Source: Crocinitomicaceae bacterium
Lineage (GTDB): Bacteria > Bacteroidota > Bacteroidia > Flavobacteriales_G > Salibacteraceae
Length of the DNA stretch: 64,000 nucleotides
Reading direction: 5' to 3'
Assembly (NCBI GenBank): GCA_002713215.1
Contig: PAVO01000042.1
Location: forward strand, 1 to 64,000
The notes under the pieces were generated by a model, which was not told the DNA's origin, searched no databases, and worked only from the letters and a program-made list of their open reading frames with translations. The position numbers and the translations under genes were made by a program. Of this stretch, positions 1,812 through 39,024 are shown piece after piece (the first letter of the stretch is position 1; every line of letters starts with the position of its first letter).

Positions 1812-4800
1812 TTATTTAACGAGTCCAATAATTTGTGGTTGGGTATTATTCTTTCCTAAAACTAAGTATCGATCGTTGGATTTGTTCTTTATAAGTAGTG
1901 CAGATTTCGTGTCTCCCGGCGCATACAAACCAGATTTTAAATAAGGTATGGAAACCCATTTCTTTTCACTATTAAGCTTCAATAATGAACCAATTGATGC
2001 ATCAGCTCTTGGAGTTTCAACTTCAGAAGAATATAGATTGCCTAAAAGAATTGCTTCATTTTTTCCGTCCTTGTCGACGTCAGTAACTACAATAGAATTT
2101 ACCATTGAAAATTGAGCTTCTACCGGTAAGCTGGTAATTTTAAATTTTCCATTTCCAAGATTTTCCACATATACCGATGAGAAATTTGTAGCCTGGTAGT
2201 TTAGCGCTTTGTCAAGTTTGTCGCCATAAACATCCTGAATGGTTGCTACGGCAAACTCGTTGTATGTTGGGAATTTTTGTTTAATGAAAGGCATTTGCTC
2301 GGAGCTACATTGTCTTCCTCTTACCGGATAACATGCGCCATGATCGTAATAGCCTAGAACAATATCCAAGGTGCCATTATCATCAAAGTCATGACACCAT
2401 ATTTGGAACGGTGTTTCAGGTGTTGCCTTATACTTATAGTTTAATCCAAGATTACCAATCATGAAGTCCATATCTCCATCGTTGTCAAAATCATTGACAG
2501 CTAATCCACTCCACCATCCAACTTCTTTAGAAAGGTTGAGTTCTTTTTGCCAGGTTAGTTTTCCATTATCATTATTCATTAACATAATTGGCATCCATTC
2601 ACCAACTACAATTAGATCAAGGTCACTATCTCCATCGTAGTCTACCCATTGGCTATTAGTTACCAGCCCAGGATTCTTAAGTTCTGGAGCCACTTCAGAA
2701 GTAACATCCGAGTATTTCCCGTTTTCATATTTCAGCAACATACTTTGAGGGGCAAAAGGGTAAGTCTTTGGAACAAGTCTTCCCCCAACGAAAAGATCCA
2801 AATCCCCATCATTATCATAGTCTCCTGCGGAAACACTTTTTCCACTAATCTGGAAATCTGGCAGAACCCCATTTGTCTTCCGAAACTTTCCATTGCCTAG
2901 GTTTTCATACAGCCTATGCGTAAATAATGAGTTTCCAGATTCAAACTCATTCCCGCCGCTTGCCACGTATAAGTCATTGTCGCCATCACCATCAAAGTCA
3001 TAAATGAGTGCGCCAACATCTTCATTTTTACTATCAATCTCAAGAATTTCGGGAAATTTGCGGGTAAAGGTTCCGTTTTGGCTTTGGAAGAACATTCCTC
3101 CACGTTGATTTAATGCTCCTCCCATATAAACATCATCCAGTCCATCTCCATTTAAATCGCCCTTTGCGAGAGCCGGACCCATATTGGAATTTCCATGTGG
3201 CAGAAGGGTTTCCAATTCAAAATCATTGTACTTATTTTCTACATGAGTGAAATTAAGACCCAGTTGGTTTTCGGCATCCTTAAATAAAAAACCTTTTGAA
3301 TTATCTGGAGCTGCTTTTGCGGTGTTTCTTGCCTGATTAACCTTAATGCGTTTATTTACATCCGATTCATAATTTGAAACCGTTCCGTTAAGCCAGGATA
3401 CCTCAACGTTGACTTTTCCTGCATACTTACCAAGTCCAAAATGGAGAACAGGCTCCACACTTGATATGTATCCCCTGGTTGTATGATATTGTTGTACTTG
3501 TATACCTTGATTCGTGGTTACTTTAACAACCGCTCCGGAACTAACCGCATCCGGGTCTTCGAACTCAACGTATAAGTGATTGTTTTCTAATTGTTCGGCT
3601 TTGTTTTCATAAACCCAGGCAACGGACTCCATATTATTCATTACCAAATCAAGATCTCCATCGTTATCCAAATCTCCAAAAGCGGCACCTTGGGTAAACC
3701 CCTTTTTATGGAGTCCCCACTCGTAGGTTTTTTTCGAAAAAGTTAAGTCACCATTGTTCCTATAGATGTAGTTTGGCAATGGAGTGCTGGGTGTATTTTT
3801 AAACCTGTCCATAAGTTCAGCCTCGGTTAGGTTGGCCCTGTTGCTAAACTTTTTCTGAACTTGCCTGGAGTAGTCGTTGTCCCTGTCGTCCAGTCTATAT
3901 CCATTGGTAACCAAAAGATCTTTGTGACCATCGTTGTCAAAATCAGCGAAAAGAGGAGCCCAACTCCAGTCTGTACTTTGAACTCCAGCCAGCTGTCCAA
4001 TTTCTGAAAAAGTTCCATTTCCATTATTAAACTGAAGAGTATTATACATGTATTGGTGTGGAAGCCCGAAGTCAACCAACTCGTTAAAAGCAATAGGGTT
4101 CATTCCGCTCATTTGAGTTTTGGTTCTAACATGATCTTCTGCCGACATGTCCAAGGCCATGATATCCATTAATCCGTCATTGTTAAAATCAGCAATATCG
4201 TTACCCATACTGTATAGTGCAATATGATTGGTTCGCTTTTTAATTTCCTCCTTAAATGTCTTATCTCCTTGATTCATATAAAGGAAATCGGGTGAAGAAT
4301 AATCATTGGATACATATATATCCGTATATCCGTTTTGGTCTAAATCACCAATCACAACACCAAGACCGTACCCTCCAAATGATTCGAGCTTTAATCCAAC
4401 TTTTTTGGTAACATTTTTAAATTTCCCGTTTTCATTTTCATAAAACTGGTCTGCTCCAATTACCGCTCGTTTATAATGATCGCGTGACATTTTTTCATCT
4501 CCTTCCCAGCGATTGGGATGATTCAATACAAATAAATCCAAATCGCCATCGTTGTCATAATCAAAGAACACACTCTGGGTACTCCAACCTGTGTCTGCTA
4601 TTCCCATCTCATCAGCTTTGTCTGTAAATGTTAAATCGCCATTATTGATGAGCATGGCATTTTTCTTTTCTTCCGCACTTTTCATTCCACCTTTACTAAC
4701 ATATATATCGGTAAGGCCGTCGCCATTGATGTCAATCAAACAGACCCCGTTACTCCAGGAGTTGGGAAGTCCTGTTCCCGATTTTTCAGTGATATCTTCA

Positions 4801-5129
4801 AATGCAAGATCTCCTTTATTCAAGTATAGTTTGTTCTCAACTTCGTTGCCAGTAAAAAAAACATCGTTTTTTCCATCATTGTTGAAATCGGCAATTCCTA
4901 CTCCACCGCCATTGAATTGGTATTGAAATTCATAAAATTTAAGTTCGGCTTCTGCGGTGAAACTATTGTTAAAGGTAACACCGGTTTTTTCAGCGGGTAA
5001 GAATTCAAATAGTTCAGTCGCTTTCTTTTTTTCTTGCTTTTTATCATCGACAATTTCCTTCTTTTTATCGTCGAAACAGGAGCTTAGGAATAGGACTAGA
5101 GTTAATAAAAGTATGCCGTTAAATTTCAT
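1812..5129 (-). CDS. FG-GAP/VCBS repeat lipoprotein with ASPIC/UnbV domain
   Basis: A protein of 1105 residues, exported and lipid-anchored: the start MKFNGILLLTLVLFLSSC ends in a lipobox with Cys18. I chose ATG 5129 over an in-frame TTG two codons earlier. The body is built of about fifteen calcium-binding loops of the DxDxDG type (DFNNDGKND, DINGDGLTD, DYDNDGDLD and so on), as in integrin-like FG-GAP/VCBS beta-propellers, probably two propellers. Between them, roughly residues 510-600, lies an ASPIC/UnbV domain (GYISSVEPVLHFGLG, then VSWLNG). This architecture is the CRTAC1-like family common in Bacteroidota. It follows the response regulator gene by 7 bp and so is probably the last gene of the ABC transporter operon. 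Its ligand is not known. Not a SusD or enzyme by any motif I see. Confidence 0.85.
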   Translation of the reverse strand: MKFNGILLLTLVLFLSSCFDDKKKEIVDDKKQEKKKATELFEFLPAEKTGVTFNNSFTAEAELKFYEFQYQFNGGGVGIADFNNDGKNDVFFTGNEVENKLYLNKGDLAFEDITEKSGTGLPNSWSNGVCLIDINGDGLTDIYVSKGGMKSAEEKKNAMLINNGDLTFTDKADEMGIADTGWSTQSVFFDYDNDGDLDLFVLNHPNRWEGDEKMSRDHYKRAVIGADQFYENENGKFKNVTKKVGLKLESFGGYGLGVVIGDLDQNGYTDIYVSNDYSSPDFLYMNQGDKTFKEEIKKRTNHIALYSMGNDIADFNNDGLMDIMALDMSAEDHVRTKTQMSGMNPIAFNELVDFGLPHQYMYNTLQFNNGNGTFSEIGQLAGVQSTDWSWAPLFADFDNDGHKDLLVTNGYRLDDRDNDYSRQVQKKFSNRANLTEAELMDRFKNTPSTPLPNYIYRNNGDLTFSKKTYEWGLHKKGFTQGAAFGDLDNDGDLDLVMNNMESVAWVYENKAEQLENNHLYVEFEDPDAVSSGAVVKVTTNQGIQVQQYHTTRGYISSVEPVLHFGLGKYAGKVNVEVSWLNGTVSNYESDVNKRIKVNQARNTAKAAPDNSKGFLFKDAENQLGLNFTHVENKYNDFELETLLPHGNSNMGPALAKGDLNGDGLDDVYMGGALNQRGGMFFQSQNGTFTRKFPEILEIDSKNEDVGALIYDFDGDGDNDLYVASGGNEFESGNSLFTHRLYENLGNGKFRKTNGVLPDFQISGKSVSAGDYDNDGDLDLFVGGRLVPKTYPFAPQSMLLKYENGKYSDVTSEVAPELKNPGLVTNSQWVDYDGDSDLDLIVVGEWMPIMLMNNDNGKLTWQKELNLSKEVGWWSGLAVNDFDNDGDMDFMIGNLGLNYKYKATPETPFQIWCHDFDDNGTLDIVLGYYDHGACYPVRGRQCSSEQMPFIKQKFPTYNEFAVATIQDVYGDKLDKALNYQATNFSSVYVENLGNGKFKITSLPVEAQFSMVNSIVVTDVDKDGKNEAILLGNLYSSEVETPRADASIGSLLKLNSEKKWVSIPYLKSGLYAPGDTKSALLIKNKSNDRYLVLGKNNTQPQIIGLVK

Positions 5130-5136
5130 AGCCAAT

Positions 5137-6303
5137 CTATTTTGGATTCGAATACATGAGAATATCGTTTGCTTCGATTTTCTCGTCGCACAAAATTATA
5201 AGTCTTTCAATTATGTTTCTTAATTCACGGATGTTTCCTGTCCAGTTTATTTGCTCTAACTCCTTGATAGCCTTATCGCTAATTTTTTTAGGCGCAAGAC
5301 CCATTTCACCACAAATCAAATTCATGAAATGATTACTTAAGAGGGCAATGTCTTGTTTGCGATCGTTAAGTGAAGGGACCTTTATAAGAATAACGCTTAA
5401 CCGATGGTATAAATCTTCTCGAAAGTTCCCTTTCTCAATTTCTTTTTGCAGGTCTTTGTTGGTCGCTGCTAGAACCCTCACATCAACCTTAATGTCTTTT
5501 TCACTTCCAACCCTTGATATTTTGTGTTCTTGAAGAGCCCTCAAAACTTTGGCTTGGGCCGATAGACTCATATCACCAATTTCATCCAAAAACAAGGTAC
5601 CGTTTTGAGCTTGTTCAAACTTCCCTTTTTTCATTTTGACAGCGGAAGTAAACGCACCTTTTTCATGCCCGAACAGTTCACTTTCAATAAGTTCTGAAGG
5701 AATTGCTGCGCAATTAACCTCTACAAACGGGAGTTTTTTTCGCTTGCTTTGATCGTGAATTTCTCGTGCGACTAACTCCTTGCCTGATCCATTTGGCCCA
5801 GTTATCATTACCCTGGCAGCGGTAGGAGCAACTTTGCCAATCATTTCATGCACGCTTTTAATCTCCTTACTTTCACCAATAATGCTTCCTCCGTTAAACG
5901 ACTGGACTTTCTTTCTTAGGGTACGGGTTTCCTTTACTAACTCTTCTTTTTCGAGGCCATTACGAACAATAACCAGTAGTCGGTTTAAATCCAGTGGCTT
6001 GGCCAGGTAATCGTATGCGCCTTTTTTAATTGCTTCGACTGCGGTTTCAATGGTTCCATGGCCAGAAATCATGATAACGTTTAAATCGGGGTTGGTTTCG
6101 AAAGCCATCTCCAGGAATTCCAGCCCATCAAGCTTTGGCATTTTTACGTCGCATAGCACCAGGTCGTATTCATTTTTACGAGCCAGAGCTAATCCTGTCA
6201 TTCCGTCTTCTGCTTCATCGATTGAATGACCTTCATATTCCAGGACATCCTTTAATGAATTCCGAATACTTTTTTCATCGTCAACTACTAAAATTCTAGC
6301 CAT
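5137..6303 (-). CDS. NtrC-type sigma-54 activator, receiver plus AAA+, no DNA-binding domain
   Basis: 388 residues. Residues 1-120 are a receiver domain with acidic pocket DD at 8-9 and phospho-acceptor Asp52 (LVLCDVKMPKLDG). The AAA+ sigma-54 interaction domain follows, with Walker A GPNGSGKE, the sigma-54 contact loop GAFTSA (usual form GAFTGA), Walker B GTLFLDEIGD, and the arginine-finger region. The protein ends about 20 residues after the NWTGNIRELRNIIERL helix, where family members normally continue into a Fis-type helix-turn-helix of 50-60 residues. It may therefore act from solution or through a partner. No sensor kinase is adjacent. It sits 3 bp after the ABC permease gene and 7 bp before the FG-GAP lipoprotein gene, so all are likely co-transcribed. 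Confidence 0.88.
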   Translation of the reverse strand: MARILVVDDEKSIRNSLKDVLEYEGHSIDEAEDGMTGLALARKNEYDLVLCDVKMPKLDGLEFLEMAFETNPDLNVIMISGHGTIETAVEAIKKGAYDYLAKPLDLNRLLVIVRNGLEKEELVKETRTLRKKVQSFNGGSIIGESKEIKSVHEMIGKVAPTAARVMITGPNGSGKELVAREIHDQSKRKKLPFVEVNCAAIPSELIESELFGHEKGAFTSAVKMKKGKFEQAQNGTLFLDEIGDMSLSAQAKVLRALQEHKISRVGSEKDIKVDVRVLAATNKDLQKEIEKGNFREDLYHRLSVILIKVPSLNDRKQDIALLSNHFMNLICGEMGLAPKKISDKAIKELEQINWTGNIRELRNIIERLIILCDEKIEANDILMYSNPK

Positions 6304-37548: not shown

Positions 37549-39024
37549 TTAGCTCCACATCTCTTTTATTGATTTGGGATTGGTTAAACGTTTATTGACG
37601 AAGAAGAATTGATAGAGTTCGAAAAACCAGACCCGTTTCCCAATGTTGTTGTACCAGAACATCGCCTTTCGAAGCCTTCGATCGCGATGAAAAAGCCATC
37701 TTCCAATGGCCTTTGGTCTTATTTGCATGAGTACTTCCATAAGTTTGACCAGGAGAATAACCTTCCAGGGTTTTACATAAGGAGTTTCTAAAACCTGGTG
37801 TTTATAGTCCCAAAGCGATTGATCATCCAAAATAATATTCTTGGATTCTACTTCTTTAAAGTAGGGAGTCCATTGGTGAGGCGTTACATAGAGTAACTGA
37901 ACCTGGTCGGGATCGTAGGCCAGCAGTTGCCTGAAACTGTTGTAAAAATCAATGAGTTTTTCTTCTCCAAAGCCAACAACATAAGTAGCCATAGATAAAA
38001 TATCGTACTTTCTGAGCAATTCAATGGCCTTCTTGTCTTTTACCGCTGAACCAGCCTTCTTGATTTTTTCAAGAACAACCTCATCGTAGTTTTCGATGCC
38101 AAGCAGAAATCGTTCAAACCCTGCCTGTTTATACAAATGAAGATGCTTTTCGTCTCGAACAATGTTGTCTGCTCGTATGGAACCTACCAGAATCATATTC
38201 AGGTTTTTCCGGATTAATGCTTCCAGGAATAATTTCCATTCATGTTTGTTCGTTGAAGGGTTTTCGTCGGCAAAATTGATAACCTCTATTCCGTAATCAT
38301 GGTGTAGCATTTCAATTTCATCCGCTAACAACTGAGGGTTTCGGTTTCTCCATTTTTTCCAAAACAGGCTTTGCCCACAATAGTTGCAAGGGTAGGGGCA
38401 GCCTCTTGAAAATTGCAACACAACTGCTTTCTTTTTGCCCCAGTAGGTATAATGGTAACCTTCCATTAACTCCCATGCGATTCTATAATTGTCTAATTTC
38501 TCAATAAGGGGCCTGGCTTTTGATTTTATTGTTTCGGTTTTTGCTCGGTAGGCAATCCCCATAACGTTCTCTATACGTTCCGATTTATTTAACGCTTGGA
38601 TCAATTGCAAGGTCGTTTCTTCTCCTTCACCACATACAACATAATCAATGTGCTCATTTTCTACCAGGATTTGTTTCCAGTGGTAGGTGGGAAATACGCC
38701 GCCTATAATAACCTTAATGGTTGAATTGATACCTTTTATTTCTTGTGCCAGTTCATTAATTATTGGCTGTGCCGAAGTGGAACCCGAATGTCCCATTAAA
38801 ACGATATCAGGCTGGATTTGGTTGACATTATTAAGGATTTTATTAACCTTCATATTGCTATAATCGGCATCCAATAATTCGGGTTGAAAACCTGCATCAA
38901 TTAATGGGCCGGCTATGGATAGTAGACCGAGTGGAGGTAAGTGTTCATTAGGGATTCTACTTCCAATTGATTTATGAGGTGGATTGATGAGTAGAATTTT
39001 GAAGTTGCTTTTCAATACGTGCAT
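37549..39024 (-). CDS. BchE-like cobalamin-binding radical SAM protein, function unknown
   Basis: 491 residues from ATG 39024 (MHVLKSNFKILLINPP); an in-frame TTG at 39057 lies in a repeat and is unlikely. Residues 1-140 resemble a B12-binding Rossmann domain (LPPLGLLSIAGPLIDAGF, VIIGGVFPTYHW, VVCGEGEETTLQL) but lack a DxHxxG cobalamin motif. The radical SAM centre is CPYPCNYC, i.e. Cx3Cx2C, followed by FADENPSTNKHEW. The C-terminal part (LLYVTPHQWTPYF, WDYKHQVLETPYVKPW) belongs to a branch often annotated as Mg-protoporphyrin monomethyl ester cyclase (BchE). No chlorophyll genes are nearby, so the substrate is open. It stands alone on the minus strand. Confidence 0.8.
   Translation of the reverse strand: MHVLKSNFKILLINPPHKSIGSRIPNEHLPPLGLLSIAGPLIDAGFQPELLDADYSNMKVNKILNNVNQIQPDIVLMGHSGSTSAQPIINELAQEIKGINSTIKVIIGGVFPTYHWKQILVENEHIDYVVCGEGEETTLQLIQALNKSERIENVMGIAYRAKTETIKSKARPLIEKLDNYRIAWELMEGYHYTYWGKKKAVVLQFSRGCPYPCNYCGQSLFWKKWRNRNPQLLADEIEMLHHDYGIEVINFADENPSTNKHEWKLFLEALIRKNLNMILVGSIRADNIVRDEKHLHLYKQAGFERFLLGIENYDEVVLEKIKKAGSAVKDKKAIELLRKYDILSMATYVVGFGEEKLIDFYNSFRQLLAYDPDQVQLLYVTPHQWTPYFKEVESKNIILDDQSLWDYKHQVLETPYVKPWKVILLVKLMEVLMQIRPKAIGRWLFHRDRRLRKAMFWYNNIGKRVWFFELYQFFFVNKRLTNPKSIKEMWS

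Follow-up and report, generated by a model that had tools for sequence, protein, structure and literature searches.

The gene at 37549..39024 on the minus strand of the window (the whole 64,000-nucleotide stretch of DNA analysed here) encodes a radical SAM protein whose close relatives carry the database name bchE, raising the question of whether the product is an anaerobic Mg-protoporphyrin cyclase, which turns Mg-protoporphyrin monomethyl ester into protochlorophyllide, or an enzyme of another kind. The open reading frame lies where a preliminary description of the locus had placed it; to this we add the strand. It runs from an ATG at 39024 to a stop codon at 37549-37551 and specifies 491 amino acids plus the stop, with an alternative TTG start that would extend the frame up to 39057. 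Since 18 homologues at 63-76% identity match the product in nearly full-length alignments, we conclude that this is a real gene and not a chance open reading frame.

The protein has a B12-binding (Rossmann) domain at residues 29-140 (38605..38940, minus strand; PF02310, 1.8e-19) followed by a radical SAM domain at residues 204-354 (37963..38415, minus strand; PF04055, 6.2e-21), both above cut-off and in the order seen in class 1 cobalamin-dependent radical SAM enzymes. The Cx3Cx2C cluster site reported earlier reads in translation as CPYPCNYC (38377..38400, minus strand), a CxxxCxxC [4Fe-4S] motif made up of C209, C213 and C216, as in class 1 enzymes; these cysteines are invariant in the protein's own clade and also in BchE. 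A predicted structure (pLDDT 80, pTM 0.80, with residues 206-223 around the cluster poorly modelled) has strands at residues 9-13, 47-51, 74-77, 104-108 and 128-130, then a hairpin at 157-167. This five-stranded Rossmann fold plus hairpin is that of the class 1 enzymes, and the top matches of the model among solved structures are TsrM, CysS, OxsB and TokK (Foldseek E 1e-16 to 1e-13), which share the fold but are only about 15-18% identical to the window protein. From domains, motif and fold we assign the protein to class 1, and it would presumably hold the corresponding cofactors.

The best NCBIfam model for the protein is TIGR02026 (BchE), at 468.4 bits, under the curated equivalog cut-off of 481.35 bits. 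BchE proteins of phototrophs score 756-938 bits against the same model: 938 in a genome read as Chloroflexus, 847 in Roseinatronobacter, where the gene lies within a bch cluster, 776 in a genome read as Chloroherpeton, 757 in a green sulfur genome and 756 in Pseudanabaena. The identifications as Chloroflexus, Roseiflexus, Chloroherpeton and Chlorobiaceae are our own reading of the genomes, based partly on gene content. Relatives within the subfamily straddle the cut-off, at 481, 501 (L001), 523 (L012) and 669 bits (Allocoleopsis). With some members passing at 501-669 bits and others falling short, the model is too broad and its cut-off a borderline and non-specific test, which accounts for the label bchE on plasmid records of close relatives in Sphingobium and Allocoleopsis.

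Phylogeny, which the preliminary description had proposed as a check, separates the two groups. In a tree of 47 proteins, the window protein belongs to a clade of 21 (support 100/99) that includes the Sphingobium and Allocoleopsis proteins and is joined next by four Chloroflexota proteins at 38-40% identity (95/98), and BchE forms a clade of its own (99/98). The split was kept in a tree without the long-branch rows, with support of 100/99 for the subfamily, 98/99 for BchE proper and 100/100 for the whole BchE side; the protein thus lies outside the BchE clade of phototrophs, the two clades being separate and each supported. Identity to BchE averages 27% (25-29%), and 63 positions are fixed in both groups yet differ between them. 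Examples (subfamily/BchE) are ADENP/ADEEP, C-x-Y-C-G-Q/C-x-F-C-S-Q and WDYKHQ/YNFVTP, the last of which falls in the C-terminal WDYKHQVLETPYVKPW stretch singled out earlier, now located at residues 405-420 (37765..37812, minus strand), and is invariant in the close subfamily. A profile-profile alignment with BchE (hhalign) spans residues 3-413 with probability 100 and leaves the last ~78 residues outside, so the earlier remark on a C-terminal half unlike that of canonical BchE was right. This unaligned region (residues 414-491; 37552..37785, minus strand) is mostly helical, basic and aromatic: residues 406-480 hold 16 K/R against 5 D/E, together with 15 W/F/Y, and predicted helices span residues 419-476. 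Such a C terminus would fit contact with a membrane surface, which we regard as possible. A BchE-type tail is missing, the protein having 491 residues against ~550 or more in BchE. What the two families have in common is domain order, the cluster site, homology over residues 3-413 and about 60 other fixed positions.

Trees, discriminating positions and the unalignable C terminus together support the separate subfamily that had been suggested. We conclude that the protein belongs, with very little doubt, to an uncharacterised sister subfamily of BchE and is not a Mg-protoporphyrin cyclase. Proteins that resemble BchE without being BchE have a known precedent, mutants of three Synechocystis bchE homologues having shown no cyclase phenotype (PMC4500134); what is new here is the delimitation of the subfamily, its carriers and a gene cassette described below. 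Separately, two orphan proteins (L103 in G088 and L104 in G213) branch off basally to BchE in the tree, as a third BchE-like lineage; their genomes have no BchL match over cut-off, and they are further candidates for a misnamed bchE.

Genome content, judged by BchL and BchH as markers of chlorophyll synthesis, separates the groups in the same way. No BchL match over the model's cut-off was found in the gene's own genome, in 19 other carrier genomes or in four genomes of the sister clade; matches to the BchL family in the own genome fall far below it. BchH gave no match in the own genome and none at cut-off in any carrier or in the four sister-clade genomes, and two sub-threshold matches, on the Sphingobium plasmid and in G446, are probably the related CobN. 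Genomes with BchE, in contrast, have these genes. Eleven genomes encoding BchE-clade proteins were tested, and BchL exceeded its cut-off in 10 of them, as it did on the Roseinatronobacter plasmid; the eleventh (G093) carries three BchH genes that pass the cut-off for BchH, and BchH is present in the control genomes with BchE. For Sphingobium and Allocoleopsis the search covered the plasmids only, and Allocoleopsis, a cyanobacterium, makes chlorophyll; the marker test is therefore uninformative on those two hosts. A rhodopsin-family search of the own genome, run without a positive control, was empty. The genome-wide search for bch genes proposed in the preliminary description thus yielded neither a BchL above cut-off nor a BchH match, and the lack of bchL and bchH at cut-off supports the view that carriers do not synthesise chlorophyll. 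Neither a firm placement within BchE nor a full bch set was found.

Plasmid records give members of the subfamily the name bchE, yet its carriers lack the tested genes of the chlorophyll pathway. The name is therefore misleading, and counts based on it can wrongly imply phototrophy, as they could for Asgard and Planctomycete assemblies too (loci L011-L013). A large set of Bacteroidota proteins at 30% identity was considered as coming from gut bacteria, which is ruled out by its two genera testing positive for BchL/BchH; the tree identifies these proteins as true BchE, and we read the genera as Chlorobiaceae. A 34%-identical relative (L098, 7509-8951, minus strand) occurs in a green sulfur genome (G202) that also has true BchE and bchL, and a Rhodobacteraceae plasmid (L110, CP049029.1, 6004-8248) has bchE and bchJ, with no further bch gene in the 13 kb read.

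Neighbours of the gene in the window, read from their translations, are eno, gltA and genes for a leucine-rich-repeat protein, a DEAD helicase and an acyl-CoA dehydrogenase. No pigment gene was read among them, in keeping with the housekeeping surroundings noted earlier. The gene is present in only 1 of 42 genomes of its own order and in 10 of 200 from the family of its nearest relatives, and an even phylum sample of 395 genomes contained no second member of the subfamily. Fifteen GTDB loci at 63-76% identity are spread over several phyla, with labels that include Heimdallarchaeota/Asgard, Planctomycetaceae and Chloroflexi, some of which may be binning errors. Kin of the own genome have the eno-gltA ... 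LRR ... DEAD block without the gene at the same site, and in one of them the DEAD helicase directly follows gltA. Given this sporadic presence and the empty eno-gltA site in kin, the gene was probably acquired horizontally, and the subfamily has probably moved between phyla. At third codon positions the gene has a GC content of 0.42, near the top of the 45 window genes, for which the mean is 0.346 +/- 0.043; this is a modest sign of foreign origin. Virus contigs scanned with the subfamily alignment yielded no relative. Near-identical copies in two Asgard assemblies (L012 and L013) adjoin near-identical bacterial-type sigma-factor-like genes, surroundings that could reflect an island or shared contamination.

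The preliminary description called the gene an orphan, which holds in its own genome but not in several Crocinitomix-related genomes, where it lies within a cassette. At five such loci it is grouped with Coq4-like, DUF4184 and DgkA genes, and the group lies below an HTH_34 regulator; the DUF4184 protein also matches Zn-dependent phospholipase C. The order is Coq4, radical SAM, membrane gene(s), DUF4184, DgkA at three loci (L001, L004, L015), Coq4, DUF4184, radical SAM, DgkA at another (L005) and radical SAM, Coq4, DUF4184, DgkA at the last (L006). Linkage that is kept despite such shuffling suggests a shared function. On the cyanobacterial Allocoleopsis plasmid DUF4184 is directly upstream of the gene. 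Six carriers have DUF4184, and in every one of them its distance from the radical SAM gene is about 2 kb or less. The Coq4-like proteins of the cassette retain the HDxxH-x11-E motif (described in PMC8826242), and the substrates of COQ4 are precursors of isoprenoid quinones (PMC11495197). The cassette points, weakly, to a hydrophobic, isoprenoid or lipid substrate; the hint is weak because the own genome and most carriers do not have the cassette, and because five of the six cases come from one bacterial family. No DUF4184 or Coq4-like match was found in the own genome, and most carriers have unrelated neighbours, with no lipid genes close by. We conclude that the cassette is not an obligate set of partners, and it may consequently not report the substrate. 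In G803, a genome that does not carry this radical SAM gene, DUF4184 lies 0.7 kb from a weak Coq4-like match. In the literature searched we found no paper on DUF4184 or on a BchE-like orphan subfamily. In a Bacteroidales assembly (L009), a GMC-oxidoreductase-like gene at 4577-6175 immediately precedes the radical SAM gene and is a possible partner.

A further difference from BchE lies in the B12-binding domain. Strand 3 of the predicted structure (residues 74-77) is followed by a GHSGSTSA loop (residues 78-85; 38770..38793, minus strand) that is missing in BchE. Its H79 (38788-38790) is kept in 20 of 21 rows of the clade (Tyr in one) and in four of five sister rows (Asn in one), whereas BchE has a gap at this position in both alignments. 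The loop after strand 3 supplies the residue beneath the cobalt in related enzymes: Asn186 in OxsB, Arg69 in TsrM and Trp76 in TokK (PMC13331322). In the HMMER alignment OxsB Asn186 is an insert that immediately precedes the histidine, and the two residues coincide only if the loop is read without gaps. On the strength of the loop's position and the OxsB alignment, we propose H79 as a candidate lower ligand of the cobalt in the window protein. None of the four solved full-length structures that PMC13331322 reviews for these enzymes has a protein histidine below the cobalt. A bolder combination, in which a mobile stand-alone enzyme performs a new reaction on a membrane isoprenoid or lipid with H79 below the cobalt, seems to us distinctly unlikely.

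By analogy with the two protein families, the cluster at C209/C213/C216 would cleave SAM to a 5'-deoxyadenosyl radical. This would take hydrogen from a hydrophobic substrate, probably one associated with the membrane, and the substrate radical would then be methylated from methylcobalamin in the N-terminal domain. Taken singly, methyl transfer falls just short of an even chance, and a substrate of this kind, be it an isoprenoid, a quinone or a lipid, is a somewhat more tentative proposal. The second-best NCBIfam match, the hopanoid C-3 methylase HpnR (TIGR04367), is likewise a cobalamin radical SAM enzyme and works on a membrane lipid; its score of 121.5 bits over residues 28-416, against a cut-off of 650, places the protein outside that family. 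Our preference for methyl transfer comes from cobalamin radical SAM enzymes at large, most of which are presumed to be methylases (PMC13142503), and not from any feature found here; no sequence feature that we found separates methylases from non-methylases. The explanation as a whole, a horizontally acquired, largely stand-alone, non-cyclase sister of BchE that carries out radical methylation of a hydrophobic substrate, we regard as evenly poised between right and wrong.

Its main rival, less probable but a serious contender, is a BchE-type oxidation (hydroxylation, or ketone or ring formation) without methyl transfer, acting on a substrate other than a Mg-porphyrin. BchE is the nearest characterised family and is not a methylase (PMC13142503), and the cluster cysteines and about 60 other positions are common to both groups. 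However, the window protein has GHSG in the loop that follows strand 3, where BchE shows a gap, and with 63 positions fixed differently the same reaction type is not to be assumed. This combination of a common scaffold and cluster with another cobalt-side loop and another C terminus makes the subfamily a natural comparison set for BchE. The comparison could help to show what makes cobalamin radical SAM enzymes oxidise and not methylate, a choice called poorly understood in PMC13142503.

Methylation of a hydrophobic substrate must also be weighed against two other substrate classes. Modification of a soluble specialised metabolite, for instance a peptide or a phosphonate, with the lipid-flavoured cassette a coincidence, would agree with the absence of nearby lipid genes in most carriers and with weak matches to a PhpK-family P-methyltransferase (TIGR04479, third-best at 114.8 bits) and a RiPP C-methyltransferase (83 bits). 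Both scores are far below cut-off (600 for TIGR04479), no phosphonate cluster was seen, and we recognised neither a precursor peptide nor a biosynthetic cluster next to the gene in the window or the neighbourhoods read; we consider this reading unlikely. A tetrapyrrole other than Mg-protoporphyrin, such as a haem precursor or a corrinoid, is very unlikely: porphyrin is the nearest characterised substrate class, through BchE, but many BchE-fixed positions are replaced throughout the subfamily, and no haem or corrin gene was recognised adjoining the gene in the neighbourhoods read. A true anaerobic Mg-protoporphyrin cyclase, as a phototroph relic or a recent loan, is scarcely credible, since the bchE name of close relatives and the passing TIGR02026 scores of L001, L012 and Allocoleopsis are outweighed by the separate clade, the replaced BchE-fixed residues, the contradicting genome content of carriers without a BchL or BchH family member over cut-off, and the Synechocystis precedent (PMC4500134).

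Elsewhere in the own genome (G000), contig C36 has five more B12-binding radical SAM genes within 17 kb (53-70 kb; L121). Their products are 22-27% identical to the window protein, and the genes lie among methyltransferase and other genes in what is possibly a biosynthetic cluster.
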